This document shows positions 19,524 to 50,988 of a stretch of DNA of 53,396 bases, one piece after another. The position numbers and the translations under genes were made by a program. Position 1 is the stretch's first letter. Every line of letters starts with the position of its first letter. Origin of the DNA: Cytophagales bacterium (GTDB taxonomy: Bacteria > Bacteroidota > Bacteroidia > Cytophagales > Cyclobacteriaceae); the NCBI GenBank assembly GCA_020403045.1, contig JADBYK010000068.1, positions 1 through 53,396 on the forward strand. Reading direction: 5' to 3'. The notes under the pieces were generated by a model, which searched no databases, was not told the origin of the DNA, and was given only the letters and a program-made list of their open reading frames with translations.

Positions 19524-19530
19524 TTTCACT

Positions 19531-20060: not shown

Positions 20061-20065
20061 ATCCG

Positions 20066-21177: not shown

Positions 21178-21198
21178 AATCAAATTGATAATTATCGC

Positions 21199-23092: not shown

Positions 23093-23158
23093 TGGTTTGA
23101 AAGAATAATCGGTTAAAAGCCGATTTACTCTGGCAAAGAATCAAATTATTTGAATTTT

Positions 23159-24728: not shown

Positions 24729-24808
24729 AACACTGCATTTAAGTAGGCAAAGGTACAGTTTAGTTTGGGGGAAAAAGCTCAAAAATATAAAAAGGAGAGA
24801 GTGAATAA

Positions 24809-26704: not shown

Positions 26705-28197
26705 ACGTCTAGCTTTACCTGCTTCAAAAACTTCTCCGCTTTCACCATATCGTCATGCAATAAGCGGTCTGTTTTTATAAACGGAACTGCGTCCCTAAAA
26801 GTATCTACAAATGCAGCAAGCTTGTCAGACGTCTTTGCTGGCTTTCTGAAATGCAATGCTTGCGCTGCTGTAATTAATTCGATGGCCAAAATAGAATACA
26901 AATTATTGACGACCCGAAATGCTTTTGTTGCTGCATTGGCGCCCATACTGACATGATCTTCTTGCCCATTGGATGATACGATCGAATCGACCGAGGCGGG
27001 GCTACAGAGTTGTTTATTCTGACTGACTAACGAAGCTGCCGTGTATTGTGGGATCATCAAGCCCGAGTTAATACCGGGATTAGCCACTAAGTAATTGGGC
27101 AGATCACGTGATCCAGAAATCAACTGATAGGTTCTTCTTTCGGATATGCTACCCAATTCAGCCAAGGCAATTGCCAAAAAGTCCAGTGAAAGTGCCAAGG
27201 GTTGACCATGAAAATTACCCGCTGAAATTATTTTATCCTCTTCCGGAAAAATATTGGGATTATCAGAAACACTATTGACTTCCGTTAAAAATGTGCTGGT
27301 TACAAATTCAATAGTGTCAAGACTTGCTCCGTGCACCTGAGGTATGCAACGAAACGAATAGGGGTCTTGAACATGTTTTTTATACTGAGAAATAATGCCA
27401 CTGCCAGCTAGTAACCGCTGGATCTCTTTTGCCACTTTAATTTGTCCATGGTGTGGGCGAATTTGATGCACTAGTCCATCAAAAGGTTCGATGCGACCAT
27501 CAAACGCATCCAGCGAAAGAGCGCCAATACTATTTGCCAAACGTAGGAGGCGCTGCGCATGCAAACAACACCAAACACCATAGGCGCTCATAAACTGTGT
27601 TCCGTTCAACAGCGCCAACCCTTCTTTTGCTTTAAAGTGGATGGCATTCCAGCTCAAAAGTTTTAAAACCTCGGCACTAGGATATACTTTTCCAAGATAA
27701 TGCACTTCTCCTTTACCTATTAAAGGGAGCGCCAGGTGCGCAAGAGGAGCCAAATCTCCTGAGGCGCCCAAAGAGCCCATTTCAAAAATTCGAGGTAAAA
27801 CACGTTCATTGAACATAGCAGCCAATCGCTCAGCGGTTTCCGACTGAACACCGGAATGACCGTATGAAAGGGATTGCACTTTTAAAAACAACATGAGTAG
27901 AACAATCTCTCGGGGCACCTCTTGTCCTGCACCGCAGGCATGAGACATCACCAAGTTCTCTTGCAATTTTTCAAGTTGATCTTTTGGGATGTTGCGATCA
28001 TACAATGAACCAAATCCAGTATTTATTCCATAAATTGGAGCGGTCGATGAATTGATTTTTCGGTCTAGGTACTCACGGCAACGAACAATCTTCTTTTTTG
28101 AATCAGTCGACAACACAATTTTCGAATGACCATGAAGAATCTGATCTAAATCTTCCAGGGTCAATCGTTTATCGGATATGATATGGGCTGATTGCAT
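26701..28197 (-). CDS. hutH: Histidine ammonia-lyase
   Basis: 498 aa. Deaminates L-histidine to urocanate, first step of histidine degradation. The MIO-forming tripeptide is Ala145-Ser146-Gly147 in GSLGASGDLAPLAH. Tyr56 in YGINTGFG is the catalytic Tyr. The selectivity pair reads Ser85-His86 (LVMSHACG), the histidine-lyase type rather than the tyrosine-lyase (xHL) type. QYTAASLVSQNK and the SQEDHVSM-like stretch (NGQEDHVSMGANA) are typical. hutU, hutI and ftcD/hutG are not next to it. It sits between hisS (57 nt upstream) and the T9SS protein, an unusual setting for a hut gene. Confidence 0.92.
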   Translation of the reverse strand: MQSAHIISDKRLTLEDLDQILHGHSKIVLSTDSKKKIVRCREYLDRKINSSTAPIYGINTGFGSLYDRNIPKDQLEKLQENLVMSHACGAGQEVPREIVLLMLFLKVQSLSYGHSGVQSETAERLAAMFNERVLPRIFEMGSLGASGDLAPLAHLALPLIGKGEVHYLGKVYPSAEVLKLLSWNAIHFKAKEGLALLNGTQFMSAYGVWCCLHAQRLLRLANSIGALSLDAFDGRIEPFDGLVHQIRPHHGQIKVAKEIQRLLAGSGIISQYKKHVQDPYSFRCIPQVHGASLDTIEFVTSTFLTEVNSVSDNPNIFPEEDKIISAGNFHGQPLALSLDFLAIALAELGSISERRTYQLISGSRDLPNYLVANPGINSGLMIPQYTAASLVSQNKQLCSPASVDSIVSSNGQEDHVSMGANAATKAFRVVNNLYSILAIELITAAQALHFRKPAKTSDKLAAFVDTFRDAVPFIKTDRLLHDDMVKAEKFLKQVKLDV

Positions 28198-28254
28198 TCG
28201 AACGATTAAAATTCAAGTATTAAAATTCCAAAAAACAAAATTTCACTATCCGTT

Positions 28255-29619
28255 TTATCCTCTCAACTTGAAAAGCAATTCTTCCACTGAAAGCTTTACC
28301 TGTTCTCCCTTGTCCATATCCTTTACAGTTAGCATTCCGTCTTTCATTTCATCGGTGCCAACAACAACAACAAAAGGTATCTCTTTTCGATTGGCGTAGT
28401 CCAGTTGCTTTTTCAACTTAGTTACATCCGGATAAACTTCTGTAGAGATTCCACTTTCGCGAAGCTGATTCGCGACATTCAATGAATAGCGTAATGTAGC
28501 ATCATCAAAGTGCGCCAACATTACGTTCGAAGACACCTGTGCCTCCTTTGGGAAAAGTTTCAGTTCTTCCATGGCATCGTAAAGGCGATCAACACCAAAC
28601 GAAATCCCCACGCCCGAAACATCGGGCAGACCAAAAACACCGGTTAGATTATCATAACGACCGCCACCGCTTACACTGCCAATAGCCACATTATTTATTT
28701 TTACTTCAAATATGCAGCCTGTGTAATAGCTCAAGCCACGGGCGAGGGAAATATCAAACTCCACATGCTGCTCTGTCGCTCCATAGCTTTGCAATAAGCT
28801 CAACACTTCTTCAAAATCAGCAATTCCTTTTTTTCCGTTTTCAGAATTAGAGAATTTAGATTTTAAAAAATCAATTTTCTGTTGAGTACTGCCTTTGAAA
28901 TTCAGAATAGCAAAAACCGAATCGATGCCTTTATCTTCAAATCCGCGGGAGCGCAATTCTTCTTTTACTTTTTCTTCACCAATCTTATCCAGTTTATCAA
29001 TAGCAACGAATAGAGAGGACTCGTTTTGAGAACCCGTTAATTCAGCCAAGCCAGAAAGGATTGCCCGATGATTTATCTTGATGGTAAAATCTTTAATGCC
29101 AAGAGATTTAAAAACTTCTTTGATCATCAACACAATCTCCGCTTCGCAGACTAACGAATCAGTACCTACTACATCGGCATCGCATTGGTAAAATTCGCGG
29201 TAGCGTCCTTTCTGTGGTCGATCTGCCCGCCACACGGGTTGGATTTGGTAACGCTTAAAGGGGAAGGCAATCTCACCTCGATTCATCACAACGTATCGGG
29301 CGAAGGGTACGGTAAGGTCGTACCTCAACCCTTTTTCAGAAATATCTTGAATTAAAAGTTTCGAGTTTCGAGTTTCGAGCATTGAGCTATCGACATCTTT
29401 CAAATAATCACCAGAATTCAACACTTTGAACAACAACTGATCGCCTTCTTCACCATACTTGCCCGTGAGGGTCGAAAGGTTCTCCATGGTGGGAGTCTCC
29501 AATGGCTGAAAGCCGTATTTCTGAAACACCTTACGGATATTATCAAATATAAACTGCCGCTTGGCCATTTGTGCCGGGCCGAAGTCGCGGGTGCCTTTTG
29601 GAATAGTAGGTTTGTCCAT
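28255..29619 (-). CDS. hisS: Histidyl-tRNA synthetase
   Basis: 454 aa class II synthetase charging tRNA-His. Visible: PKGTRDFGP start, motif 2 with PVWRADRPQKGRYREFYQCD, the HisRS-specific LARGLSYYTGCIFEV, motif 3 GISFGVDRL, and the C-terminal anticodon-binding domain (about 360-454). The ATG at 29619 is preferred to an in-frame TTG at 29634. Residues about 81-88 (LETRNSKL) are encoded by a tandem heptamer and sit in a loop before the conserved ISEKGLRYDLTVPF. The gene precedes hutH on the same strand. Confidence 0.95.
   Translation of the reverse strand: MDKPTIPKGTRDFGPAQMAKRQFIFDNIRKVFQKYGFQPLETPTMENLSTLTGKYGEEGDQLLFKVLNSGDYLKDVDSSMLETRNSKLLIQDISEKGLRYDLTVPFARYVVMNRGEIAFPFKRYQIQPVWRADRPQKGRYREFYQCDADVVGTDSLVCEAEIVLMIKEVFKSLGIKDFTIKINHRAILSGLAELTGSQNESSLFVAIDKLDKIGEEKVKEELRSRGFEDKGIDSVFAILNFKGSTQQKIDFLKSKFSNSENGKKGIADFEEVLSLLQSYGATEQHVEFDISLARGLSYYTGCIFEVKINNVAIGSVSGGGRYDNLTGVFGLPDVSGVGISFGVDRLYDAMEELKLFPKEAQVSSNVMLAHFDDATLRYSLNVANQLRESGISTEVYPDVTKLKKQLDYANRKEIPFVVVVGTDEMKDGMLTVKDMDKGEQVKLSVEELLFKLRG
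29358..29379. repeat. TTTCGAG heptamer, three tandem copies inside hisS
   Basis: GTTTCGA repeats three times in phase with the coding strand (minus-strand unit CTCGAAA). 7 nt is not a multiple of 3, so each copy is read in a different frame; three copies total 21 nt and keep the gene open. It encodes LETRNSK. Confidence 0.7.
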
Positions 29620-38658: not shown

Positions 38659-41094
38659 TCATTCGGCACCATACTCCAATTTCATCTTTTTGATCCTGTC
38701 TTCTAGCTTTTCAGAAGTCAGCTTCTCTCGGGTTCTATCTACCATGATTGGAAAAGCAAAGGGAGTTGGCTTTTCCGGTTGGGTGATGATTATCTTTTGC
38801 GTAGCTATTCTTTCCAGCGCTTGCCGCAATCGTGCTTCTTCTAATTGAAAGTCCATGACTTCCTCTAAGGATTGAAGTAACAAAAGATTATCTGACTCAT
38901 ATTCATGAAATACATTGAAAAAAAGTTGTGACGAAGATTGCAGATGTTTGTCTTTCATTCGTTTTCCGGGCATCCCTTTAAATATTAGCCCGGAAATCGC
39001 TGCGATATCGCGAAACTTCCTTCTTGCCATTTCGGTGGAGTTGATACTGGCATAAATATCGGTTGACAAATTTTCCATGCCTAAAACATTGGTTTCAACC
39101 GCCTCAAAGATCGGAATGGGTTGATCTGACAGCAACTCAAAACCATAGTCATTCATCGCAATTGAAAAGGTGATGTGAATAATCCTGGCAATGCGGTACG
39201 CAACCAACGCACCCAGCCCTTCGTGTACATTCCTCCCTTCAAAAGGATACATCATTACATGGTATCCTTCACTGCTTTGAAAATACTCAATGAGAAATTC
39301 ACTTTTGGTGGGAAGATGCGAGCGGTTTTTTTGCAAATCCATCAACGGTTTTAAAAAACACATCTCTTCATCCGATTCGTTATTGCTGGCAGACTCATCT
39401 ATTTTCAATCGGATCATTTCACTTAGCTGAGATGAAAGCGGCATCCTCCCTCCTTGCCATGAAGGAACCTTGCCCGACTTGCGTTTTGATTTTCGCACAT
39501 GCGCTTCCATTTCTTTGATGCGCACCAATTCTAAACATTGGCCGGCAAACCAAAACACATCACCAATGTGCAAACTGGAAATAAAATATTCTTCGATAGT
39601 GCCCAAGTATTTTCCCGTGGCATATTTTACGTGCATCAATGTATCTCCCACAATAGTTCCAATGCTTAGCCGATGCTTGTGGGCAATCTGTTTACTCTCT
39701 ACTTTATATACACCGTCCTGCACTATCACTTTTCGATATTCGTCATATGCAGTAAGCGCCTCGCCACCAGACGTAATAAAATTTAAACACCATATCCATT
39801 CTTCATCTGTGACCGATGAATAGCTAACCGTTCCTCTTACTTCACTTAAAATTTCTTCTGGTTTGAATCCATCGCCCACCGCAAGCGTCACCAGGTATTG
39901 CACCAGCACATCAAACGATCGAATGTATGGGAAACGATCTTCTACAATTTTTTGATGGATCGCTTCGCGCAAAGCTGCAGCTTCCGTCAATTCTAATGAG
40001 TTGGTCGGTAGAAAATAAATTCTGCTGGTAGCTCCCGGCTGATGGCCACTCCTACCCGCCCGCTGCAAAAACCTAGCGACACCTTTCGGGCTGCCAACTT
40101 GTATGATCGTTTCCACCGGACGAAAGTCAACTCCCAGATCTAAACTAGAAGTGCAAACCACTGCTTTCAGATTTCCTTCATGCAGTTGGTCTTCCACCCA
40201 ATTTCTGGTGGCAGCACTGATCGATCCATGATGCATGGCTAATATACCAGATAGTTCGGGCGCTTTGGCCAATAGTTTCTGATACCAAATCTCAGCAAAG
40301 GAACGCGTGTTAGTAAATATCAACGTGCTCTTGCTGTTGTTAATGATAGGAATGACTTTGTCAAGCAACTGAATACCCAGATGACCCGACCAGGGCATTC
40401 GCTCCAGCTCATCCGGAAAAATGGAAATGATCTCAACCTTCTTCTCAATCTGCGCTTTGATGACTTTGAATCGATTTGCCTCGTAAAAATTTCCCAATAA
40501 TACCTGCAACGATTGATCCATGTTGCCGATGGTGGCTGAAATACCCCAAACTTTGAGTGAAGGGCAGATTCCTTTCAATCGAGAGAGTGCCAACTCCATC
40601 AATACGCCACGCTTGGAGCCAATGAGTTCGTGCCATTCATCAACTACAATGGCGCGTAAGTTTTCGAAATAGGTAGTCCCTCCTTTTTGTGAAAGTAATA
40701 GGTGTAAACTCTCAGGCGTTGTGATGAGAAACTCTGGAGGGTTTTCCTTTTGCCTGGCTCGTTCCTTTGTCGAGGTATCACCTGAGCGAACGCCCACTCG
40801 CCATTTGGTGCCCAGCCCGTTATTCGCCTTTTTTGCCGACAACTCAATTTCTTTTGCCAACGCACGGATCGGGGTTATCCAAATCGCCAAAGGGCCTTTT
40901 GACTTGCGGCCTGAGGCGTTCTCCAGTAAAATCGGAATAAGTAAAGAGTATGTCTTTCCGCTGCCGGTTGGGGCGTTTACCATTCCACTATAGCCGGCTC
41001 CATAGGCTTGCCAGGCCTCTCGCTGAAATTCGAATGAACTCCATCCTTGCGTCTTAAACCAACTCTCCCCTTTTTTCCAAGTAGTAGGATCCAT
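38659..41094 (-). CDS. Lhr-like DEXH-box helicase, ligase-associated type
   Basis: 811 aa superfamily 2 DNA helicase. Motifs: Q-like GWSSFEFQREAW, Walker A NAPTGSGKT, TPIRAL, DEXH box VVDEWHEL, motif III GISATIG, then HHGSISAATR, VVCTSSLDLGVDF and QRAGRSGHQPG for domain 2, followed by the winged-helix and Lhr core (about 400-790). Length and composition match the 'ligase-associated DNA damage response' helicases normally encoded with an ATP-dependent ligase, an exonuclease and the PdeM phosphoesterase. None of those partners is adjacent here, so it is an orphan member. The ATG at 41094 is well supported. Confidence 0.9.
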   Translation of the reverse strand: MDPTTWKKGESWFKTQGWSSFEFQREAWQAYGAGYSGMVNAPTGSGKTYSLLIPILLENASGRKSKGPLAIWITPIRALAKEIELSAKKANNGLGTKWRVGVRSGDTSTKERARQKENPPEFLITTPESLHLLLSQKGGTTYFENLRAIVVDEWHELIGSKRGVLMELALSRLKGICPSLKVWGISATIGNMDQSLQVLLGNFYEANRFKVIKAQIEKKVEIISIFPDELERMPWSGHLGIQLLDKVIPIINNSKSTLIFTNTRSFAEIWYQKLLAKAPELSGILAMHHGSISAATRNWVEDQLHEGNLKAVVCTSSLDLGVDFRPVETIIQVGSPKGVARFLQRAGRSGHQPGATSRIYFLPTNSLELTEAAALREAIHQKIVEDRFPYIRSFDVLVQYLVTLAVGDGFKPEEILSEVRGTVSYSSVTDEEWIWCLNFITSGGEALTAYDEYRKVIVQDGVYKVESKQIAHKHRLSIGTIVGDTLMHVKYATGKYLGTIEEYFISSLHIGDVFWFAGQCLELVRIKEMEAHVRKSKRKSGKVPSWQGGRMPLSSQLSEMIRLKIDESASNNESDEEMCFLKPLMDLQKNRSHLPTKSEFLIEYFQSSEGYHVMMYPFEGRNVHEGLGALVAYRIARIIHITFSIAMNDYGFELLSDQPIPIFEAVETNVLGMENLSTDIYASINSTEMARRKFRDIAAISGLIFKGMPGKRMKDKHLQSSSQLFFNVFHEYESDNLLLLQSLEEVMDFQLEEARLRQALERIATQKIIITQPEKPTPFAFPIMVDRTREKLTSEKLEDRIKKMKLEYGAE

Positions 41095-41127: not shown

Positions 41128-41149
41128 TATTTTTGGGTGTTTTTGTTTA
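41128..41149 (+). promoter_or_regulatory. Promoter and candidate operator of the CarH/LitR-like regulator
   Basis: TATTTTTG at 41128-41135 fits TAnnTTTG (start near 41142). TTTTGTTTA at 41141-41149 sits on the start site and recurs three times in front of the neighbouring sigma-factor gene, so it may be an autoregulatory site. Confidence 0.5.
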
Positions 41150-41166
41150 AAGTTTGGCTGCAAAAT

Positions 41167-42045
41167 ATGGGCAAATATTCAATAAAAGAGTTAGAACAGC
41201 TTTCGGGGATTAAAGCCCACACCATTCGTATCTGGGAAAAACGCCACAGACTTATTGAACCCAAGCGGTCCACCACCAACATCCGGTCTTACTCGGATGA
41301 TGACTTAAAGAAAATTATCAACGTAGCTGTCCTTAACAACAACGGGGTAAAAATTTCGAAAATAGTACAGTTAAGTCTGGCTGAAATAAATCAGCAAGTA
41401 GTAGATCTCAGTGAGTCGAAAAATGATATCGACATCTTTATTGAGCAGCTTATCGTGGCCATGGTTGACATGGAAGAAGAGGTGTTTGAGAAGCTACTGG
41501 GATCACTGACCCTTAAGTTCGGTTTTGAAAAAACCATGCTGGAGATTGTGTATCCCTTCATGGAAAAAATTGGGGTACTTTGGCTGACCGACAACATTAC
41601 CCCCGCACAGGAGCATTTTATCTCACATCTGATCCGCCAAAAAATAATTGTAGCCATCGATGCGCTACCTATTGCGCCCAAAACAGAGAAAAAAGCTGTT
41701 TTGTTTTTGCGCGAAACGGAACTCCATGAGTTAGGACTGCTCTTTTATCATTACATGGTCAAGAAAATGGGAATCCGCACCTATTACTTGGGTCAAACTG
41801 TACCTCATAAATCACTGGTTTCAGCGTGTAGCGAACATCAACCCGACTTGATTATTACAGCTCTGACGGCTGGACCTAAACCATCTGAAATGCAAAAGTA
41901 TCTGGATCAACTTTCATCTGATTTCCCTAATTCCCGACTATTAATTACGGGGTATGCCTTGAAAAAAACGGATGTAAACCTGCCCAAGAACATTTCAATC
42001 TTCCCGAATGTATTGATTCTCAAGGAGATACTTTCAAAAAATTAA
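41167..42045 (+). CDS. B12-binding MerR-family regulator, CarH/LitR type
   Basis: 292 aa. Residues 1-75: MerR winged helix (MGKYSIKELEQLSGIKAHTIR...). About 85-165: helical bundle with W139-x9-E149-H150 (signature Wx9EH), which in CarH caps the upper face of adenosylcobalamin. About 175-290: cobalamin-binding Rossmann domain with E185-L-H187-E-L-G190, the ExHxxG motif whose His is the lower cobalt ligand. CarH/LitR proteins bind AdoB12 and repress carotenoid promoters in the dark; light breaks the Co-C bond and releases DNA. Position next to an ECF sigma gene and crt genes strongly supports that role. Leu140 replaces the His132 of Thermus CarH. The ATG at 41167 replaces an in-frame GTG at 41137 that lies before the transcription start. 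Confidence 0.88.
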   Translation: MGKYSIKELEQLSGIKAHTIRIWEKRHRLIEPKRSTTNIRSYSDDDLKKIINVAVLNNNGVKISKIVQLSLAEINQQVVDLSESKNDIDIFIEQLIVAMVDMEEEVFEKLLGSLTLKFGFEKTMLEIVYPFMEKIGVLWLTDNITPAQEHFISHLIRQKIIVAIDALPIAPKTEKKAVLFLRETELHELGLLFYHYMVKKMGIRTYYLGQTVPHKSLVSACSEHQPDLIITALTAGPKPSEMQKYLDQLSSDFPNSRLLITGYALKKTDVNLPKNISIFPNVLILKEILSKN

Positions 42046-42070
42046 TTGTTCACTCTTTCTTTAATAATAT

Positions 42071-42142
42071 TAAACAAAATGTTGCTATTGTCAATATAAA
42101 AGGTACTTTTGTTTATCATTTCACATAAATAGATAAACAAAA
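42071..42142 (+). promoter_or_regulatory. Sigma-factor promoter with three TTTTGTTTA motifs and an 11-bp inverted repeat
   Basis: TTG (42082-42084), 19 nt, TACTTTTG (42104-42111): full Bacteroidota promoter. TAAACAAAA at 42071-42079 and 42134-42142 and its complement TTTTGTTTA at 42107-42115 surround it. TTTTGTTTATC (42107-42117) and GATAAACAAAA (42132-42142) form a perfect 11-bp inverted repeat that covers the -7 box and touches the start codon. A repressor bound here would block the promoter; the adjacent MerR protein is the natural candidate. Confidence 0.6.
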
Positions 42143-42645
42143 TGACCGCAATTGACTTCGATCAGCAGCTTGCAAGCATGAGGCCGACACTCAGAAGTTT
42201 CACCCATCGCTTCACTCGCGATCGGGAAGAGTCGTTGGATTTAGTACAAGACACCATTTTAAAAGCGTTAACCTACAGAAATAAATTTCGCGAAGACACC
42301 AACTTAAAAGGCTGGCTTTTCACCATCATGCGAAATACATATATCAACACCTATCGCAAGTCAAAGAGGGAAAGAACTTCTACAGACAGCACCAAAGAAC
42401 TATACCACCTTAACGTGGAGGACATGCATACTTTCAACCGTCCGGAAGGTAGCATTGAGTTCAAGGAAGTATGGCGTAATGTCAATTCGGTGAAGGATGA
42501 GTTGTTGATTCCCTTCAAAATGCACACAACTGGTTATAAATACCATGAAATTGCAGAGCATTTGAAACTTCCCATTGGAACTGTAAAGAATAGAATTTTC
42601 CATGCTCGCAAAGAGATTCAGAAAAAACTAACAGGCTACGAGTAG
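42142..42645 (+). CDS. ECF-type RNA polymerase sigma factor (LitS/CarQ-like role)
   Basis: 167 aa sigma-70 family, ECF group. Region 2 spans about residues 10-80 (DLVQDTILKALTYRNKF, GWLFTIMRNTYINTYRK), region 4 about 110-165 (YKYHEIAEHLKLPIGTVKNRIFHARKEI). No anti-sigma gene follows; instead the MerR-B12 regulator lies upstream and crtI downstream, as in the Streptomyces LitR-LitS-crt arrangement where the sigma factor drives carotenoid genes. I infer the same here. The protein would recognise a promoter ahead of crtI or the SRPBCC-crtZ operon. A clear terminator follows, so crtI has its own promoter. Confidence 0.9.
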   Translation: MTAIDFDQQLASMRPTLRSFTHRFTRDREESLDLVQDTILKALTYRNKFREDTNLKGWLFTIMRNTYINTYRKSKRERTSTDSTKELYHLNVEDMHTFNRPEGSIEFKEVWRNVNSVKDELLIPFKMHTTGYKYHEIAEHLKLPIGTVKNRIFHARKEIQKKLTGYE

Positions 42646-42668
42646 GATAAAATTCGTTCTCATTTTGA

Positions 42669-42697
42669 AATCCTTTCAACACTGAAAGGATTTTTGT
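42669..42697 (+). terminator. Terminator of the sigma-factor gene
   Basis: AATCCTTTCA (42669-42678) pairs perfectly with TGAAAGGATT (42683-42692) around loop ACAC, followed by a T-run (42691-42695). Confidence 0.85.
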
Positions 42698-42723
42698 GTT
42701 TTAAGGGGTATTATTGAGCATGA

Positions 42724-42770
42724 AATGGCCAATCCACTCTTGACACTTGATCACCATTATCTTGGCCATT
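42724..42770 (+). promoter_or_regulatory. crtI upstream region with AATGGCCAA inverted repeat
   Basis: AATGGCCAA (42724-42732) and TTGGCCATT (42762-42770) are a perfect 9-bp inverted repeat separated by 29 bp, ending 30 bp before the crtI ATG. TATCTTG at 42758-42764 is a weaker -7-like match; TTGAC at 42740-42744 lies between the arms. It could be an operator or the ECF promoter. Confidence 0.4.
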
Positions 42771-42800
42771 CCATCTGGCGCTAAAAAATAAAAATAGCAG

Positions 42801-44276
42801 ATGAAAAAAGTAGCAGTGATCGGTTCAGGATTTGCGGGTTTGGCAGCAGCATCTTGCCTTGCCAAAAATAAATTTGATGTAACCGTCTTTGAAAAAAATG
42901 CATCGGCTGGTGGCCGTGCTCGCAAATTTGAAACCAATGGTTTTGTTTTTGACATGGGCCCCAGTTGGTACTGGATGCCGGATATCTTCGAAAAGTATTT
43001 TGCCTTATTTGGCAAAACGCCCGCTGATTTCTACCAACTGAAAAGACTTGATCCCTCCTACCGCGTATTTTTTTCTGAAACCGATTACAAAGACATCCCT
43101 GCGGGAGAAAAAGCATTATTCGATTTTTTTGAAAGTATTGAGCGAGGAAGCAGCATTCACCTTGCTCAATTTTTGAAGGAAGGAAAATACAAATATGACA
43201 TTGGAATCAATAAGCTGGTTTACAAACCCGGATTATCCATTTTGGAACTTGCTGATCTTGAATTACTAAAGGGTGTATTTCAGCTACATGTTTTTGAATC
43301 AGTTACCGCCTACGTAAAAAAGTATTTCAAAGATCCTCGGCTTATTCAATTGCTAGAATTTCCGGTTTTATTTCTAGGTGCTCCTGCCGACAAGACTCCT
43401 GCACTTTACACCTTAATGAATTATGCAGACATGGCGCTTGGTACGTGGTATCCCATGGATGGCATGCACAAAATCGTAGAGGGAATGGTAAAGGTGGCTG
43501 AGGATTTGGGAGTAAAATTTGAGTTTAACAGTGAAGTAGAGAAAATAAATGTAAGTGAAACGTTGGCACAAAGCCTTCAGGTCAAAGGAATCCAAAGAGG
43601 TTTCGATTATGTTGTGGCGGGAGGCGATTATCACCACATTGAACAGAACCTTTTGCCTGAAACACATCGCAGGTACACTGAAAGTTATTGGCAAAATCGA
43701 GTGATGGCACCTTCCAGCTTGATTTATTATCTGGGCGTTTCCAAAAAAGTCAAAAACCTAATACACCATAATTTATTTTTTGACCGTGATTTTGGAAAGC
43801 ACGCTCAAGAGATATACACGAGCCCTCAGTGGCCAACGGATCCATTGTTCTACGTTTCAGTACCATCCAAAACCGACCCATCTGTTGCCCCCGAAGGGCA
43901 TGAAAACATTTTCTTGTTGATGCCGGTAGCGCCCGGCCTCCAAGATGACGAAGCCACCCGAGAAAAATATTTCAACCTCATGATGGATCGAATCGAAAAA
44001 CTAACAGGTGACAGCTGGCGAGAATACATTGTTTTTAAAAGAAGCTATGCGCATGCCGACTTCGAGTCTGACTATCATGCATTTAAAGGAAACGCGTACG
44101 GTTTAGCGAACACCATCACGCAGACAGCGAATTTGAAGCCTTCGATGATAAACAAAAAGGTAAAAAACCTGTTTTATACGGGTCAGTTAACTGTGCCTGG
44201 ACCAGGTGTTCCGCCTTCGCTGATTTCAGGGCAGGTGGTAGCTAGTGAATTGACAAAAGCGGACGTTCGACTATAA
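42801..44276 (+). CDS. crtI: Phytoene desaturase (CrtI type)
   Basis: 491 aa FAD-dependent desaturase turning phytoene into lycopene, membrane-associated. The N-terminal dinucleotide-binding motif VAVIGSGFAGLAAASCLA and GGRARKFETNGFVFDMGPSWYWMPD are diagnostic; the C-terminal stretch LFYTGQLTVPGPGVPPSLISGQVVA is the conserved FAD/substrate signature of CrtI. The size is normal. It is followed by crtB after 47 nt, and crtB by idi with overlapping codons: one crtI-crtB-idi transcript. Related enzymes act on other carotenes (CrtN, CrtD), but synteny with crtB and the cyclase favours phytoene desaturase. Confidence 0.93.
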   Translation: MKKVAVIGSGFAGLAAASCLAKNKFDVTVFEKNASAGGRARKFETNGFVFDMGPSWYWMPDIFEKYFALFGKTPADFYQLKRLDPSYRVFFSETDYKDIPAGEKALFDFFESIERGSSIHLAQFLKEGKYKYDIGINKLVYKPGLSILELADLELLKGVFQLHVFESVTAYVKKYFKDPRLIQLLEFPVLFLGAPADKTPALYTLMNYADMALGTWYPMDGMHKIVEGMVKVAEDLGVKFEFNSEVEKINVSETLAQSLQVKGIQRGFDYVVAGGDYHHIEQNLLPETHRRYTESYWQNRVMAPSSLIYYLGVSKKVKNLIHHNLFFDRDFGKHAQEIYTSPQWPTDPLFYVSVPSKTDPSVAPEGHENIFLLMPVAPGLQDDEATREKYFNLMMDRIEKLTGDSWREYIVFKRSYAHADFESDYHAFKGNAYGLANTITQTANLKPSMINKKVKNLFYTGQLTVPGPGVPPSLISGQVVASELTKADVRL

Positions 44277-44323
44277 GCAAAATAGTTAAATTTGCTAGTT
44301 ATCCGCCCGCAAAACCGAAGACC

Positions 44324-45163
44324 ATGAGTAAGGAATTATTTGATAAGGTATCAGCAAAATGTAGCCGCATAACTACACGCGCCTATAGCACTTCTTTTTC
44401 TCTTGGCATTAAATGTTTAGAAAAGGAACTTCGTGAACCCATTTATGCAATTTATGGGTTCGTACGTTTTGCTGATGAAATAGTGGATACGTTCCATGAT
44501 TACAATAAAGAGTTGCTTCTATCTCGTTTCAAAACAGAAACATACCAAGCCATCGAAGAGAAAATTAGTCTCAATCCAATTCTAAATAGCTTTCAAAAAA
44601 CAGTTAATTTTTACGGAATAGAGCCAGCCCTTTATAACCAGTTCCTGAAAAGTATGGAAATGGATTTGATGAATACCTCATACGATGAAAAAGGGATTAG
44701 TGAATATATCTTAGGTTCCGCAGAAGTGGTAGGTCTGATGTCATTGCGGGTATTTTGTAAAAATGATAAGGAAATGTATGAGCGCTTGAAGCCTTCCGCG
44801 ATGAAGCTAGGTTCAGCCTTCCAGAAAATCAATTTTCTACGTGATTTGAACGCAGATTACAATCAAATGGGGCGCACATATTTTCCTGGTGTTGACCTGT
44901 CCCACTTCGATGAATCAACAAAAAAGCAATTAGAACAAGATATTGCTGCTGATTTCAAAGCAGGATACGAAGGCATTAAACAGCTTCCAAAGTCAGCACG
45001 ATTTGGCGTTTACGTTGCCTATGTTTACTATCTGGCACTATTTGAAAAAATAAAAAATACACCCAGCAGCACGGTGTTGACTAAAAGAATCAGGGTTAGA
45101 AATAGAAGGAAGTTATCTATCCTGGCTTATTCCTACGTCAGACATCAGTTAAATCTCATTTGA
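44324..45163 (+). CDS. crtB: Phytoene synthase (squalene/phytoene synthase family)
   Basis: 279 aa. Joins two geranylgeranyl diphosphates into phytoene with Mg. The two Asp-rich motifs are clear: FADEIVDTF (about residue 49, DxxxD) and FLRDLNADYNQMGRTYFP (about residue 172), plus YSTSFSLG near the N-terminus. The stop TGA shares a base with the ATG of idi (TGATG), so the two are translationally coupled. Squalene synthase function is less likely given crtI upstream. Confidence 0.93.
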   Translation: MSKELFDKVSAKCSRITTRAYSTSFSLGIKCLEKELREPIYAIYGFVRFADEIVDTFHDYNKELLLSRFKTETYQAIEEKISLNPILNSFQKTVNFYGIEPALYNQFLKSMEMDLMNTSYDEKGISEYILGSAEVVGLMSLRVFCKNDKEMYERLKPSAMKLGSAFQKINFLRDLNADYNQMGRTYFPGVDLSHFDESTKKQLEQDIAADFKAGYEGIKQLPKSARFGVYVAYVYYLALFEKIKNTPSSTVLTKRIRVRNRRKLSILAYSYVRHQLNLI

Positions 45164-45690
45164 TGGACTCAGTGATACTTGTGGATGAAGAAGATAACGC
45201 CATTGGTATCATGGAAAAAATGGAAGCTCACGAAAAAGGACAATTGCATAGAGCCTTTTCGGTAGTCGTTTTTAATTCGCAAGGGCAAATGCTCATCCAG
45301 AAAAGAGCAGCGAAAAAATATCATAGCGGAGGCCTCTGGACAAATGCGTGCTGCAGCCATCCCACACCAAAAGAAGAAATTGAGCTGACAGTCAAAAAGC
45401 GACTTCTATATGAAATGGGCATCGAACTTTCCCCTCAATTCATTTACAAATTCGTATACCAAATAAATCTCGATCAAAACCTGATTGAGCACGAAGTCGA
45501 CTATGTCTTTAAGGGTATTTATGATGGAGAGCCCAGTGTTAACGCTGAGGAAGTGGAAGATTGGAAATTTATTTCAATAGCCGATCTGGTAAATGAAATG
45601 GAAGCGAATCCTGATCAATACACGTATTGGTTCAAGTTGATTGTTAACCATCCTGAGTTTCAGTATTTGGCATCCTATCCGAGTAAATAG
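45163..45690 (+). CDS. idi: Isopentenyl-diphosphate delta-isomerase, type I
   Basis: 175 aa Nudix-fold enzyme balancing IPP and DMAPP, supplying the isoprenoid chain for carotenoids. Active-site NACCSHP with the catalytic Cys (residue 64), HRAFSVVVFNSQGQMLIQKRA at the N-terminus, and the EExE-like SVNAEEVEDWKF with the catalytic Glu are all present. The ATG at 45163 overlaps the crtB stop; a TTG one codon earlier is not needed. Type I Idi does not use FMN, unlike type II. Confidence 0.93.
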   Translation: MDSVILVDEEDNAIGIMEKMEAHEKGQLHRAFSVVVFNSQGQMLIQKRAAKKYHSGGLWTNACCSHPTPKEEIELTVKKRLLYEMGIELSPQFIYKFVYQINLDQNLIEHEVDYVFKGIYDGEPSVNAEEVEDWKFISIADLVNEMEANPDQYTYWFKLIVNHPEFQYLASYPSK

Positions 45691-45791
45691 CGAGCGTTTG
45701 CCGTTAAAATAAAACTGATTCGATCTCTAAAAATGTTCAGATAAAAGTCAAATCTCTTTTCTACCTTTTGCTCAAGCAACCGTTAAAAAAC

Positions 45792-48700
45792 ATGAGATAC
45801 TTACTAGTCGTACTGTGTTGGTTTATAACCACAACACTATTCTGCCAGTCCTTCGACCCTAAAACATTTTCTAATCTCAAATTCCGTTTCATTGGGCCGG
45901 ACGGCAACCGCATGATATCAACAGTTGGTGAACCGGGAAATCCGATGGTGTCGTACGCAGGTGCTGCAAGCGGAGGTATCTGGAAAACCGAGGACATGGG
46001 CACCACCTGGAAGTCGATTTTTGATGATACTGAGGATTCGTCCATCGGGGCGTTGGCTATCGCGCCCTCCAACCATAAACAAGTTTGGGCTGGCACAGGT
46101 GAAACTTTTTTGATCCGCCCCGCGCATGCCGTTGGTAATGGAGTTTATAAATCTTCTGACGCGGGCAATACGTGGAAGAATCTTGGCTTAGAAAAAACGT
46201 TTCGTATCAGTCGTGTCATTGTGCATCCGACCGATACGAACACCGTTTATGTCGCATCACTGGGTCACACACATGGCCCCCAGCAAGAACGTGGTGTTTA
46301 CAAAACTGTTGATGGTGGAAAAAACTGGGAGCGTGTTTTCTTCGTGAATGAATATACAGGTTGTGCAGATTTGGCGATCGATCCCCAAAATCCGGATGTG
46401 TTGTATGCTGCGATGTGGGAAGTGGAAATAAAAACATGGAAGTTAAATAGTGGTGGCGCAGGCAGCGGCATCTATCGCACCAAAGATGGTGGTAAGACGT
46501 GGCAACCTCTGCGTAATGGAATAGAGAGTGGACCTACCCATCCGGTTGGGAAAACATCCGTGGATGTTGCTTACTCCAACCCAAAAGTGGTGTATGCGTT
46601 GGTAGAAGATAAAGAACCACGGCTGTATCGATCTGAAGACGGTGGTGACAGTTGGAAGTTAATGCACCAACACCACGGCATGGGACAACGCGCGGGCTAT
46701 TACACTCGCCTTCGGGTTTCGACCGCTGATGAAAATACCGTCTACACCATTTCAGTAGGCATCATGAAAACTACAGACGGGGGTAAAACATTCGACAAGA
46801 AATTCAATCAATGGGCGCCTGGTGGCGATAATCATGACATGTGGTTTGATCCCAAGAATGGCAAACGTATTTTATGTGCACACGATGGTTGCCTCAACAT
46901 GACCTTCAATGAAGGTAAAACCTGGAGCAATATTAACCTGCCCATAGCTCAAATGTATCACGTGGCCGTTGATAATCAGATTCCCTATTACATATATTCC
47001 AATCGACAAGACGGATGGAGCTATCGAGGGCCGAGTAGATACCTGGGCGGCTACAACATTCCATTGGGCGCATGGCATGGAGTAGGCGGTTGTGAAAGTG
47101 GATTTGCACAGCCTGATCCGTTTGACAATACGATTGTATGGAGTGGTTGCTACGATGGAGGTCTGGATGTGTTTGATTTGAAAACGATGCACCCACGCGA
47201 TGTGCGCGTGTGGCCACAAACGCAAATTGGTTCTAAGCCGGCAGATGCAAAGTATCGTTGGCATTGGAATTTTCCGATGGTGTTAAGCAAACACGTAAAA
47301 GGTCGTGTGTGGGTTGGCAGTCAGTTTGTTCATGAGACAAATAGCGTTGGCCAAAACTGGCAAGTGATAAGTCCTGACTTAACCACCAACGATAAAACGC
47401 ACCAACAAAACTCGGGGGGAATTGCCAATGATAATTTAATGACCTGGGATGGATGCACACTTTACTCGATGGCAGAATCTCCTGTGAAGGAAGGAGTGTT
47501 ATGGACGGGCAGCAATGATGGTCAGGTGAACGTGACACAAGACGGTGGTAAAACATGGTCAAATGTTTCTGCCAATATTTCAGGCTTGCCCAAATGGAGC
47601 ACTATTCGAAATATCGATGCCTCTAATTTTGATGCGGGCACTTGCTACCTATCGGTAGACGCACATCACGTCAATGATTTTGGCTCTTATGTTTTTAAAA
47701 CTACCGATTTTGGAAAGTCATGGACGCGTTTGAAAATTGAGTTATCTACATCGAACTCAAACTTTGTCAATCAAATAAAAGAAGATCCAGCGCAGGCAGG
47801 CCTGTTGTGGTTAGGAACTGACAAGTCGTTGTATTTTTCACCCGATGATGGAAAAAACTGGATTCATCTGAAAAACAATTTACCGCCTGTTCCGATTTAC
47901 GGAATTGAAATCCAAAAGAATTTCAGAGACCTGGTGATCGGTACTTATGGGAGAGGCATTTACATCTTGGATGACATTACACCTATTCGCGAGTTTAGTG
48001 AGCAAGTAAAAAATGGAGAGGCTCATTTATTTTCACTCAGGCCCACTTACCGCTTTCAGGATGTAAATGGCATCAAAACAGATCGCAGCTTTGTGAATGG
48101 ACAAAATCCACCTGATGGCACAGCTATTTCTTATTACCTGAAAGAAAAGTCGAAAGACAGTGTAGAACTTTTGGTGTACAACTCGAGCGGTGAACTTGTT
48201 CAGAAGTTGAAGGCTAAGAATCAACCCGGCATCCAACGGGTATGGTGGAACCTGAGACTGCAAGAACACACTATGCCCAAGTTGCGCACAAAACCACGAG
48301 GTAAAGACTGGGTAGCATTAGATGAGAAAGGAGAACGCAATTTGTTTATACCTGATTTAGATATTGGCCCTGGATTAACACCTCCTATGGCTCCGGTGGG
48401 TAACTACACCATTGTATTTAAAGCAAATGGAAAAGAGTATAAACAAGTGCTACCTCTTCTTAAAGATCCCAACACGCCATCTACTGACGAGCATATGGCT
48501 AAGCAGTATGCACTTGGAGTAAAACTCTATACCGCCACCAAGACAGCTCTACAGCTGATTGACGAAATGGAAAAAATGCGAAGTGTTTTGCTGGGAAAAA
48601 AGGGCGACCGCAAAGCAGCAGCGTTGGAAGAAAAAATCTATCAGCTCGAAGCTGTGTTGTTTGACATTAATCAAACCGGTGCCCGATGGGATATTTTTAG

Positions 48701-48893
48701 AAGTGGTGCACAGGTGCTGGAACGATTGCTTGCGCTTGGCAAAGAAAGCCAGGTATTTAGTGCAGACGCCCCACCGACAAATCAGCAGGGTGAAGTATAT
48801 GAACTCACTGTAAAACGATTAGAAGAGGTACAAAGCCAGTTTGAATTGATCCGAAAAAACCCTGAAATCAAGCGAATTGAGCAGAAAAAGTAA
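45792..48893 (+). CDS. Secreted BNR/Asp-box (sortilin-like) beta-propeller protein
   Basis: 1,033 aa. Signal peptide (MRYLLVVLCWFITTTLFCQS). Repeated Asp-boxes of the form S/T-x-D-x-G-x-T-W run through the first 750 residues, for example KTEDMGTTWKS, SSDAGNTWKN, KTVDGGKNWER, RTKDGGKTWQP, RSEDGGDSWKL, typical of VPS10/sortilin-like and exo-glycosidase propellers. The last 280 residues are helical and charged with no recognised sorting tail. Related proteins are annotated glycosyl hydrolases without proof; I saw no catalytic signature. The ATG at 45792 replaces an upstream in-frame TTG at 45768 that lies in a -7-like TACCTTTTG. It separates idi from the rest of the crt genes and is probably unrelated to them. 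Confidence 0.85.
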   Translation: MRYLLVVLCWFITTTLFCQSFDPKTFSNLKFRFIGPDGNRMISTVGEPGNPMVSYAGAASGGIWKTEDMGTTWKSIFDDTEDSSIGALAIAPSNHKQVWAGTGETFLIRPAHAVGNGVYKSSDAGNTWKNLGLEKTFRISRVIVHPTDTNTVYVASLGHTHGPQQERGVYKTVDGGKNWERVFFVNEYTGCADLAIDPQNPDVLYAAMWEVEIKTWKLNSGGAGSGIYRTKDGGKTWQPLRNGIESGPTHPVGKTSVDVAYSNPKVVYALVEDKEPRLYRSEDGGDSWKLMHQHHGMGQRAGYYTRLRVSTADENTVYTISVGIMKTTDGGKTFDKKFNQWAPGGDNHDMWFDPKNGKRILCAHDGCLNMTFNEGKTWSNINLPIAQMYHVAVDNQIPYYIYSNRQDGWSYRGPSRYLGGYNIPLGAWHGVGGCESGFAQPDPFDNTIVWSGCYDGGLDVFDLKTMHPRDVRVWPQTQIGSKPADAKYRWHWNFPMVLSKHVKGRVWVGSQFVHETNSVGQNWQVISPDLTTNDKTHQQNSGGIANDNLMTWDGCTLYSMAESPVKEGVLWTGSNDGQVNVTQDGGKTWSNVSANISGLPKWSTIRNIDASNFDAGTCYLSVDAHHVNDFGSYVFKTTDFGKSWTRLKIELSTSNSNFVNQIKEDPAQAGLLWLGTDKSLYFSPDDGKNWIHLKNNLPPVPIYGIEIQKNFRDLVIGTYGRGIYILDDITPIREFSEQVKNGEAHLFSLRPTYRFQDVNGIKTDRSFVNGQNPPDGTAISYYLKEKSKDSVELLVYNSSGELVQKLKAKNQPGIQRVWWNLRLQEHTMPKLRTKPRGKDWVALDEKGERNLFIPDLDIGPGLTPPMAPVGNYTIVFKANGKEYKQVLPLLKDPNTPSTDEHMAKQYALGVKLYTATKTALQLIDEMEKMRSVLLGKKGDRKAAALEEKIYQLEAVLFDINQTGARWDIFRSGAQVLERLLALGKESQVFSADAPPTNQQGEVYELTVKRLEEVQSQFELIRKNPEIKRIEQKK

Positions 48894-48899
48894 TCCAAT

Positions 48900-48920
48900 G
48901 TTAAGTTTTTTTAACTTTTT
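48900..48920 (+). terminator. Weak AT-rich terminator-like hairpin
   Basis: GTTAA (48900-48904) pairs with TTAAC (48911-48915), followed by five T (48916-48920). It overlaps the -33 region of the next gene, so its role is uncertain. Confidence 0.4.
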
Positions 48921-48949
48921 GGTAATATATGGGTAACATTCTATTTTCG
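48918..48949 (+). promoter_or_regulatory. Near-consensus promoter TTTG-20 nt-TATTTTCG
   Basis: TTTG at 48918-48921, 20 nt, then TATTTTCG at 48942-48949 (one mismatch to TAnnTTTG). Expected start near 48956, ahead of the ATG at 48973. Confidence 0.45.
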
Positions 48950-48972
48950 TGTTCACACTAGCCAAAAACGTT

Positions 48973-49218
48973 ATGGAAAAACTCATCTTAAAAGGAAAAA
49001 AAGAAGTAAAAAATTTATTGGTTGACTCTTTACACCAAACGATTCAAGCATTGGGAGTTTCGAAAGCCACTAAGAAGACTGACAAACTTGTGGAGCGCAG
49101 TGCGAAGAAAATTGCGGCTGTTGTGGGAAAGCAAATGAAAAAAGACTCAAGGAAGATCAACAAAATGAAAAAGAAAGTTGAGTCGAAGAAATTAACCAAA
49201 GAAGCAGTAGCTGCGTAA
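48973..49218 (+). CDS. 81-residue basic Lys-rich protein
   Basis: MEKLILKGKKEVKNLLVDSL begins an 81-residue protein with about 24 Lys and few aromatic residues (VGKQMKKDSRKINKMKKKVE near the C-terminus). Helical, likely cytoplasmic and nucleic-acid binding; no family name is known to me. The ATG at 48973 replaces an in-frame GTG at 48949 that lies on the -7 box. A shared terminator at 49245-49278 separates it from the convergent crtYcd gene. Confidence 0.7.
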   Translation: MEKLILKGKKEVKNLLVDSLHQTIQALGVSKATKKTDKLVERSAKKIAAVVGKQMKKDSRKINKMKKKVESKKLTKEAVAA

Positions 49219-49244
49219 TTAGTCTAGCGTCCAAATAATAAAAG

Positions 49245-49278
49245 AGCGTCAGGAATTAGTCTTGACGCTTTTTTTTTG
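49245..49278. terminator. Shared bidirectional terminator
   Basis: AGCGTCA (49245-49251) pairs with TGACGCT (49263-49269), with a G-T and G-C inner extension, then a long T-run on the plus strand. The minus-strand crtYcd stop lies inside the stem (49249-49251), so the two convergent genes share it. The U-tract is poor on the minus strand. Confidence 0.75.
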
Positions 49279-49956
49279 AAAGACCTCGAAAAGTGAAATA
49301 TTCAACAAGATTAGCAGCATACCATAAAAAGTATCCTCTACAGGTATAGTACCCAAGCGAATGTCCAAGTTCTCCGAATTATTGTACCAAATAATGGGTT
49401 CTTCAATTCCTGTCCCTGTCAAGACACCGTTCACAATAAAAAAAGGAATTAAAATAAAAGAGAACGCTAAGTAGAACCGTCCTAAGAAAATTGGTTTCCA
49501 AATCCATTGGACAAAAAAGAGAAAAATCGAAAGCGCAAAGAAAGTAACAGACGTATATAGTCTACCATAATTTAACGAGCCAACGACTGCCAGGAAGAAA
49601 ATAATCAGGACTGAAAAAAAAACTGCCTTCTTGTTCAGTATATCCTCTCTGAAATAATAGTTAACAGCCTCGTAGGAAAAAATACAAGCATACGGAATAC
49701 ATATAAACCAAAGCACCTCTTCTAAAGGTAGATGAAAGAAATATATGCCAATGATATATTTTTGATTGAATCCCCAAACACCCCACGAGGCAAACAAATT
49801 ATCCCAAAACAAAAAAAGGATACCTGGAATTAGAATGGCGGGTACTATCGCTCTCCATTTTTTGTAGACTGGATTGATCGGTAAAAAACTTAGAACAAGT
49901 GGAAAAATGATTGTTAGAAAATCAACGATGGCGTAGAGGTAATTGTCTGGGATCAT
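49249..49956 (-). CDS. crtYcd: Lycopene cyclase, fused CrtYcd type
   Basis: 235 aa integral membrane protein with about six hydrophobic segments. Two copies of the CrtYc/CrtYd-type motif: HLPLEEVLWFI (about residue 75) and IPVEDTFYGML (about residue 210), the P-(L/V)-E-(E/D) signature of the heterodimeric cyclase family fused into one chain, as in many Bacteroidota and some archaea. It cyclises lycopene ends to beta-ionone rings, giving beta-carotene. It lies downstream of crtZ on the same strand with a 76-nt hairpin-containing gap. Its stop lies in the shared terminator. Confidence 0.88.
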   Translation of the reverse strand: MIPDNYLYAIVDFLTIIFPLVLSFLPINPVYKKWRAIVPAILIPGILFLFWDNLFASWGVWGFNQKYIIGIYFFHLPLEEVLWFICIPYACIFSYEAVNYYFREDILNKKAVFFSVLIIFFLAVVGSLNYGRLYTSVTFFALSIFLFFVQWIWKPIFLGRFYLAFSFILIPFFIVNGVLTGTGIEEPIIWYNNSENLDIRLGTIPVEDTFYGMLLILLNISLFEVFQKKSVKTNS

Positions 49957-49974
49957 TTCTTTCGATAGCTATGC

Positions 49975-50020
49975 GCCTCAGGCTACACGCCACAAGCTGG
50001 CAGCCTGTAGCTTGCGGCTT
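49975..50020. repeat. REP-like imperfect inverted repeat between crtZ and crtYcd
   Basis: GCCACAAGCT and AGCTTGCGGC form a 9/10-bp inverted repeat around GGCAGCCTGT; GGCTACA/TGTAGC adds a second, overlapping pairing. The sequence looks like an intergenic REP/word repeat and could set the crtZ/crtYcd ratio by stopping or protecting RNA. Confidence 0.45.
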
Positions 50021-50032
50021 AAAGCATATGAT

Positions 50033-50527
50033 TTACTGCGTTTCAGAACGCTCCTTTCTTAAAATAAATTTCCTGGGCTCAAATTTTTTAGGTGCATACA
50101 AAAACCCAAAGGCTTCGCAATCTTCTTTGGTGTGCTTGCTGTGATGGATGTAGTGGGCGTGAATCATCCGCTGCAGGTAACTTCCTCTTTTTTTGGGAAG
50201 CCATTTAATGCGCTGGTGAACAATTACATCATGAAAAACAAAATAGAAAATACCATAGCAAATAATACCAATGCCTATGGAGAAAACATAAACACTGTGA
50301 AACAGAGTGGTAGACATAACCATCAACGTCATGGCAGGAATACTGAATACGACCGCAAACAAATCATTCCTTTCAAACGTGTGCGTGTGTACGCGGTGGT
50401 GTGATCGGTGCCATGTCCACAAAAAACCGTGCATGATATATTTATGGGAAAACCAAGCCACTCCCTCCATCGCTAGGAACGTGCCGATGATGATGAGTAC
50501 GCAAAGAAATATTGAGAAACCGTCCAT
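50033..50527 (-). CDS. crtZ: Beta-carotene hydroxylase (CrtZ type)
   Basis: 164 aa membrane non-haem di-iron hydroxylase of the fatty-acid hydroxylase superfamily, converting beta-carotene to zeaxanthin. All His clusters are present: HKYIMHG, HRSHH, FHDVIVHQR and HAHYIHH, with three to four hydrophobic segments. The start ATG at 50527 shares one base with the stop of the SRPBCC gene (TAATG), so they are coupled. No ketolase (crtW) is in the window, so the product should be zeaxanthin rather than astaxanthin. Confidence 0.92.
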   Translation of the reverse strand: MDGFSIFLCVLIIIGTFLAMEGVAWFSHKYIMHGFLWTWHRSHHRVHTHTFERNDLFAVVFSIPAMTLMVMSTTLFHSVYVFSIGIGIICYGIFYFVFHDVIVHQRIKWLPKKRGSYLQRMIHAHYIHHSKHTKEDCEAFGFLYAPKKFEPRKFILRKERSETQ

Positions 50528-50988
50528 TACCGCTTAAAGTAGCGCTCCAACACTTGGTAGCGATGGTCAAAAATACGATTTACCTCTTTGCCAACAAAAA
50601 GCCAGTGTGCCAGCCTACCGATCAACCCATACCCAATAGCATAGTTCACTTCGTCAGTCATTTCTACCCCTCCTTCAACTTCTTTGAAATGGTGCTGATG
50701 GTGCCAAAGTGTATAGGGTCCAAAGCGCTGCTCGTCAATAAAATGAAGGGGCTCTTTTACTTGGGTAATTTCAGTAACCCAATGCAGTTTAACACCCGGC
50801 AATACACTCACATTGTATCTAATTATTTGGCCGGCATATGCTTTTTCACCTCCGGAAATGTACAATATTTCGAAACCCATATGTTCGGGTGTAATTTTCG
50901 AAAGATTTTTAGGAGTGGAAAAAAAATCCCAAGCTTCTTTCAATGATATCGGCAATAGCTGTTTTCGCTGGAGGTTGTATATCTTCAT
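50527..50988 (-). CDS. SRPBCC (START-like) protein in the carotenoid operon
   Basis: 153 aa. MKIYNLQRKQLLPISLKEAWDFFSTPKNLSKITP is the typical start, and the hot-dog-like SRPBCC core holds a hydrophobic cavity; YTLWHHQHHFKEVEGGVEMTD is a conserved stretch. The function in this operon is unproven: it may bind or carry a lipophilic carotenoid, or act in a cyclisation step. It is first in the SRPBCC-crtZ-crtYcd transcript. The ATG at 50988 was chosen over that at 51063, which would prepend 25 residues lacking in relatives as I remember them. Confidence 0.82.
   Translation of the reverse strand: MKIYNLQRKQLLPISLKEAWDFFSTPKNLSKITPEHMGFEILYISGGEKAYAGQIIRYNVSVLPGVKLHWVTEITQVKEPLHFIDEQRFGPYTLWHHQHHFKEVEGGVEMTDEVNYAIGYGLIGRLAHWLFVGKEVNRIFDHRYQVLERYFKR

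Follow-up and report, generated by a model that had tools for sequence, protein, structure and literature searches.

A probable CarH/class I LitR-type MerR regulator and a conserved, putative 34-bp operator preceding sigma factor, rhodopsin and carotenoid genes in Bacteroidota

Described B12 photoreceptors and the locus under study

CarH of Thermus thermophilus, Bacillus megaterium and Myxococcus xanthus and the class I LitR proteins combine a MerR DNA-binding domain, a four-helix cap with a Wx9EH motif and a Rossmann-type B12-binding domain with an ExH motif, and carotenoid genes adjoin theirs. The same features are found or predicted for a MerR-type regulator encoded on contig JADBYK010000068.1 of the Cytophagales bacterium assembly GCA_020403045.1 (Cyclobacteriaceae; 53,396 nucleotides, called the window below), where the gene is followed by an extracytoplasmic function (ECF) sigma factor gene and carotenoid (crt) genes. 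We consider it fairly probable (about 0.68) that this MerR protein is a photoreceptor and repressor of the class I LitR/CarH type, released by light, and that its regulon joins carotenoids (via the ECF sigma factor), rhodopsin and photoprotection.

In the CarH model, an adenosylcobalamin-bound oligomer occupies the operator in the dark and light cleaves the cofactor (PMC8156234, PMC9304148). The T. thermophilus CarH operator consists of 11-bp direct repeats, nAnnTnnACAn (PMC8156234), and CarH operators are described as plastic (PMC9304148). The operator reported here differs in being a wide inverted repeat, with arms 25 bp apart and copies 44 or 63 bp apart. The window MerR itself departs from CarH in having TG for GG and A for S in the B12 motif. 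In T. thermophilus CarH, the His after the Trp belongs to the light-exposed form; the corresponding position 140 is Leu in the window MerR and Gln in 37 of 61 homologues.

A light regulator with a neighbouring ECF sigma factor for carotenoid genes is also the arrangement in Streptomyces, so the idea of pairing the two is known. The Streptomyces LitR protein and the ECF sigma factor of its crt cluster are said to have been described by Takano in 2005, the sigma gene reportedly being named LitS and arranged in this manner. The present system differs from that of Streptomyces in its Bacteroidota proteins, its own operator, a putative primary-sigma-type promoter before the ECF gene and a regulon that appears to reach rhodopsin. 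In Pseudomonas putida, folE and photolyase/cryptochrome genes belong to the regulon of a class II LitR, which in this respect resembles the regulon proposed here; class II LitR differs in lacking a full B12 domain and in working with LOV proteins, and the available portion of that account contains no link to rhodopsin or an ECF sigma factor (PMC9758184). Within the Bacteroidota, a MerR protein with a B12-binding domain upstream of crt genes is already in print. Such a gene precedes the zeaxanthin genes of the Muricauda-like strain GF1 (PMC6974559), and a MerR gene stands before the crt genes of Sediminicola YIK13 (PMC4732338) and Flavobacterium TH167 (PMC5887021). All three share with the window the order of MerR before zeaxanthin or beta-carotene genes, and two of the three strains also carry proteorhodopsin; the portions of these accounts at hand name no ECF sigma factor, operator or rhodopsin regulation. 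MliR (PMC9478572), a further Bacteroidota MerR regulator, was dropped from the comparison, being described in the available text without an effector domain. A search of one open-access library gave, among the matches listed, no CarH/LitR protein tied to a rhodopsin promoter and no mention of the 34-bp operator.

The MerR protein and the inverted repeat before the ECF gene

The regulator, the ECF gene and the elements between them are as follows.

41167..42045, plus strand: MerR-type regulator with B12-binding domain, CarH/class I LitR-like, 292 amino acids
42045..42078, plus strand: operator copy 1, which matches TTTGTTTAA-N16-TTAAACAAA at 15 of its 18 arm positions and starts on the final base of the MerR stop codon
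42081..42084, plus strand: putative -33 element of the ECF promoter, reading GTTG where the consensus assumed below has TTTG
42104..42111, plus strand: putative -7 element TACTTTTG of the ECF promoter (assumed consensus TAnnTTTG), overlapping operator copy 2
42108..42141, plus strand: operator copy 2, 16 of 18 matches, spaced 63 bp from copy 1 and running up to the ECF start codon
42142..42645, plus strand: ECF sigma factor, 167 amino acids, with sigma-70 regions 2 and 4

The residues W139, E149, H150, E185 and H187 of the window MerR showed no variation in 61 of 61 aligned Bacteroidota homologues, and therefore the CarH motif in this protein is not due to chance. The first-pass annotation had read both CarH signatures, Wx9EH (W139, E149, H150) and ExHxxG (H187), from the single sequence; its residue numbering was right. 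G190 is Gly in 34 of the 61. The spacing of the B12 motif, G190-x41-A232-L-T234-x26-T261-G262, is exact when compared with the class motif of CarH and class I LitR, D/ExHx2G-x41-SxT/V-x22-27-GG, but the residues are AxT and TG in place of SxT and GG. The Pfam models MerR_1 (50.2 bits, cut-off 21.6) and B12-binding_2 (35.2 bits, cut-off 23) both passed. The predicted structure agrees with CarH, including the fold of the B12 domain, with about 18–21% identity in the structural match to T. thermophilus CarH. The motifs and the predicted fold thus support the assignment of the window MerR to the CarH/class I LitR type. Its most likely start is the ATG at 41167, with a GTG at 41137 as an alternative in the open frame; M-x-x-Y-S-I is the beginning of most complete homologues. 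A gene for an adenosyltransferase (PF01923) is present in the same genome; it is a necessary trait but, occurring in 35 of 39 genomes, not a specific one.

A 34-bp inverted repeat, TTTGTTTAA-N16-TTAAACAAA, was recognised on reading the gaps between MerR and ECF genes. In 54 such gaps (53 loci and the window), the spacer peaked at exactly 16, with 78 sites having at least 15 of 18 arm matches versus 0.5 in shuffles; a spacer of 17 gave 37 sites, for the most part the same repeats read in a shifted register, while spacers of 4–7 gave 13–14 each. At least one site of this quality was present in 53 of the 54 gaps, and 30 gaps held two or more at 14 of 18. Paired copies stood 43–45 bp (12 pairs) or 62–64 bp (11 pairs) apart, and the averaged site reads TTTTGTTTAA-nn-tTT-n6-AAa-nn-TTAAACAAAA. 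An interpretation as direct repeats of the T. thermophilus CarH type was rejected, because the conserved element is an inverted repeat and shares only the TnnACA core with them. For calling ECF promoters we took the Bacteroidota consensus to be TAnnTTTG at -7 and TTTG at -33. In the 33 gaps in which a promoter was called, the -7 box started at +16/17 (20 gaps), +6 (8), -4 (4) or -14 (1) relative to the proximal operator. These offsets step by about one helical turn, as would be expected if the bound protein faces RNA polymerase.

The association of the operator with MerR was followed in 30 MerR-positive genomes, hand-picked and several of them chosen for a rhodopsin site already seen, and in 30 MerR-negative ones. 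The positive set contained 63 sites at up to one mismatch versus 1 for the reversed pattern, with five genomes, that of the window among them, holding none; the negative set contained 4 versus 0. Three of these four lie in one genome (G383; G, C and L numbers are our handles for genomes, contigs and loci), a fragmented assembly with a rhodopsin gene, and one of them is upstream of that gene. These counts link the operator to MerR across genomes. An orthologue of the ECF sigma factor (E below 1e-53, other hits above 1e-43) was found in 69 of 80 genomes tested and was missing from G274 and G233, both of which have MerR. In these two genomes the operator stands twice before rhodopsin and directly before crtI; the ECF sigma factor therefore does not account for the operator sites. 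DUF2452-type proteins, one checked with Pfam, also lie behind near-perfect operators in the same two genomes (L307 in G274, L299 in G233).

Genes behind the operator and gene order

The 63 sites precede ECF genes (22 sites in 20 genomes), rhodopsin (15), folE or PTPS-folE (6), fasciclin (4), crtI (3), DUF2452 (2), MerR (1), a flavin reductase with a photolyase-related protein (1) and other or unassigned genes (9); a seventh folE shares an operator site counted under ECF. Light-linked genes thus follow 52 of the 63 sites, fasciclin being counted in; in algae, fasciclin-domain proteins are able to bind carotenoids. The rhodopsin count is biased upward by the choice of genomes, a choice in which sites before folE, fasciclin and crtI played no part. 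Pfam supplied the labels of 10 proteins at 7 loci (all four fasciclin genes, one PTPS, one folE, one pair of flavin reductase and DPRP, one DUF2452 and one FAD oxidoreductase); most ECF, rhodopsin and MerR labels come from search coordinates and the remainder were assigned by eye. The first-pass annotation had placed a carotenoid cluster under this control; rhodopsin, folE, fasciclin and direct crtI sites suggest a wider regulon.

The rhodopsin link is also seen in the genome of the window, where a copy matching 16 of 18 arm positions lies on contig C33 just upstream of a rhodopsin gene that is followed by a lycopene cyclase gene and blh (beta-carotene dioxygenase). The operator was upstream of an intact rhodopsin gene in 6 of 6 scanned MerR-positive relatives, this genome included, and in 0 of 2 MerR-negative ones. 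In a class-wide scan, 42 of 94 rhodopsin upstream regions carried the operator, compared with a mean of 1.07 and a maximum of 4 in 100 shuffles and with 0 of 94 for the start of the coding sequence. The scan covered 97 loci from 95 genomes (88 of 96 rhodopsin genomes and 7 others), less three loci with under 150 bp upstream; a rhodopsin fragment in G011 was also left out. Some of the operator-bearing regions belong to genomes without the ECF sigma factor. In a sample of 396 genomes, with kinship ignored and MerR common anyway, MerR was found in 95 of 96 rhodopsin genomes versus 180 of 300 without rhodopsin. Rhodopsin and MerR are neighbours in G164 and G187; folE adjoins them in both genomes, and G164 has crtI and crtB there too.

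The rhodopsin gene of contig C33 is part of a light island (G000, 12295-28611, L128) that comprises rhodopsin, lycopene cyclase, blh, an mpaB/Lcp-type oxygenase, fasciclin-like genes, two genes each for flavin reductases and photolyase-family proteins, and one for a photolyase-related protein. A second dyad with the same arms (16 of 18) stands some 136 bp before the rhodopsin start; its spacer measures 27 bp and so exceeds the usual 16 by about one helical turn.

The order of regulator, ECF and crt genes proposed in the first-pass annotation was borne out in related genomes. MerR was found in 26 of 39 genomes, the genome of the window included, and a scan of named genomes gave at least 590 relatives, of which the best 80 loci were kept; these are the nearest relatives, and shares among them are not phylum-wide rates. 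In 53 of the 80, MerR has an ECF gene at most 1.5 kb behind it, and the 31 loci that contain crtI all show the order MerR-ECF-crtI. The gap between ECF and crtI is usually 20–55 bp in relatives, so the two genes look co-transcribed in most of them; it is 155 bp in the window, with a terminator-like hairpin. Photolyase-family genes adjoin in 11 of the 80 loci (two checked with Pfam), and folE follows ECF in L060 and L100, both without crt genes nearby.

Several further features of these neighbourhoods were observed. A photolyase-family gene lies inside the cluster in L030-L034, L087 and L101. Two tandem copies of the MerR-linked ECF gene occur in G256, G276, G065, G135, G292 and G343. A carotenoid biosynthesis gene of family PF04240 (checked for one member) is near MerR in 27 of the 80 loci L029-L108, and TspO genes (one checked) are near it in seven of them. 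A helicase-like gene at 38659-41094 of the window is divergent from MerR, and its homologue is near MerR in six loci (L029-L034).

Downstream of the ECF gene, the window contains the following.

42667..42694, plus strand: terminator-like hairpin in the gap from ECF to crtI, with T tail
42801..44276, plus strand: crtI, best NCBIfam match the bifunctional phytoene desaturase/3,4-desaturase CrtID
44324..45163, plus strand: crtB, phytoene synthase family, by family model
45163..45690, plus strand: idi, isopentenyl-diphosphate isomerase, with its ATG at 45163, by family model
49249..49956, minus strand: CarR-domain lycopene cyclase with two repeats, by family models
50033..50527, minus strand: crtZ-like hydroxylase
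50527..50988, minus strand: small protein first labelled SRPBCC, family label unconfirmed

The positions of crtI, crtB and idi were as first annotated and their families were confirmed by models, as was the two-domain lycopene cyclase (crtYcd). The second crt operon is indeed on the opposite strand; it is convergent rather than divergent and is separated from idi by about 3.6 kb, a stretch that contains an unrelated gene for a secreted repeat protein of 1041 amino acids (45768-48893). The crtZ label is favoured by 42% identity to a crt-linked homologue of another genome and by histidine boxes presumably characteristic of the family, although no Pfam or NCBIfam model matched at E 0.001. The SRPBCC label found no supported match in Pfam, NCBIfam or the PDB (best PDB E 0.91). 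A zeaxanthin cluster had been proposed; the carotenoid genes are there, but CrtI exceeds the cut-off of the bifunctional phytoene desaturase/3,4-desaturase model (732 vs 640 bits), and therefore zeaxanthin as the pure product is not certain. The hairpin scan gave 1 against 1.6 expected and is not above chance, and tRNA and Rfam searches of the window found nothing. A search for an ECF-dependent promoter in 12 candidate upstream regions of the genome, based on words in common and on spaced word pairs, gave no convincing motif.

The proposed light-release model, its alternatives and its meaning

By analogy with CarH, MerR would bind adenosylcobalamin in the dark and sit as an oligomer on TTTGTTTAA-N16-TTAAACAAA. 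The promoter, which one or two copies of this repeat typically overlie or flank, would then be shut. In the light the cofactor would be cleaved, MerR released and the promoter opened. Since the strongest copies in the genome of the window are those over the putative ECF promoter, light would turn the ECF sigma factor on, and this factor would then drive or amplify the carotenoid genes, a step that fits the gene order. Elsewhere in the Bacteroidota, copies of this operator before rhodopsin, folE and fasciclin genes, and before crtI where the ECF sigma factor is missing, would unite phototrophy and photoprotection in one light regulon. We infer the binding of MerR to the operator, its dependence on B12 and light, repression rather than activation, and the targets of the ECF sigma factor.

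Several observations weigh against this model. The B12 motif of MerR is altered (SxT to AxT, GG to TG), the Pfam model B12-binding scored 26.2 bits, under its cut-off of 32.1, and the NCBIfam CarH equivalog NF052513 was missed with 76.6 vs 400 bits; NF052513 is nevertheless the top-scoring NCBIfam model, and its cut-off is a naming threshold, not a biochemical feature. Two sites at up to three mismatches, as in the window, arose in 5 of 100 shuffles, so that the window copies are barely above chance; the whole genome holds no site at up to one mismatch and 20 at up to three, versus 22 in the control for the latter, so the case for the operator rests on conservation. L025 has MerR and ECF but no operator site, none of the seven loci with MerR but no adjacent ECF (L018-L024) has a site within 1.5 kb, the photolyase genes on contig C33 lack one, and so do both clusters in which rhodopsin and MerR are neighbours (L318 and L319, in G164 and G187). 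No operator was found in 52 of the 94 rhodopsin regions, so something else must serve them: the ECF sigma factor, a diverged operator or no light control at all. In Chryseobacterium lacus crt genes are light-induced and the authors, in the portion of their paper at hand, found no car or lit operon (PMC7064467); so either another light regulator exists there or one was missed.

A MerR protein with a B12 pocket might sense cobalamin supply or redox state instead of light, or might activate rather than repress. The -7 box is overlapped or adjoined by the operator, action from inside the promoter is frequent among MerR proteins and many Bacteroidota import cobalamin, all of which would suit such a regulator; the Wx9EH cap, which distinguishes CarH from other B12 domains, is however invariant, and light-linked genes are what the operator precedes, which makes this explanation unlikely. 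It is decidedly unlikely that the inverted repeat is bound by another protein, such as the ECF sigma factor itself or an unrelated regulator travelling with these genes. The sites do track the ECF gene closely, even where it lies 0.7–1.2 kb from MerR, but perfect sites occur in G274 and G233 without an ECF orthologue, sites are nearly absent from MerR-negative genomes, and dyad symmetry is unusual in an ECF promoter.

Control of the CarQ type, in which an anti-sigma factor holds the ECF sigma factor until singlet oxygen releases it and MerR plays a minor part, has its precedent in the same logic of the Myxococcus light pathway (PMC8156234). The window ECF gene is flanked by MerR and crtI, with no anti-sigma gene adjoining (unlinked ones were not searched for), and crtI follows ECF in 31 loci; we hold this to be very improbable. 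Least credible is an ordinary constitutive carotenoid cluster with the regulator as a relic, for which the altered SxT and GG positions would speak, since the motif residues and the operator spacing are strictly kept over many genera.

Light release of a CarH-type repressor remains our preferred explanation for the window. We lean, with less assurance, towards its extension to the Bacteroidota as a whole, namely a CarH-type B12 photoreceptor over a light regulon marked by one 34-bp operator. This regulon would comprise rhodopsin and the retinal pathway, carotenoids (directly or via the ECF sigma factor), secreted fasciclins and genes related to folate and photolyases, with cobalamin supply deciding the daylight timing of phototrophy. 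The analysis names a candidate photoreceptor, the DNA that it is expected to bind and the genes that it is expected to control, and culturable strains are concerned, for example Algoriphagus mannitolivorans DSM 15301 (= G417, 100% over 3834 bp). If true, the model would add an operator design and a sigma factor relay to the CarH family, and it would link rhodopsin phototrophy to vitamin B12.

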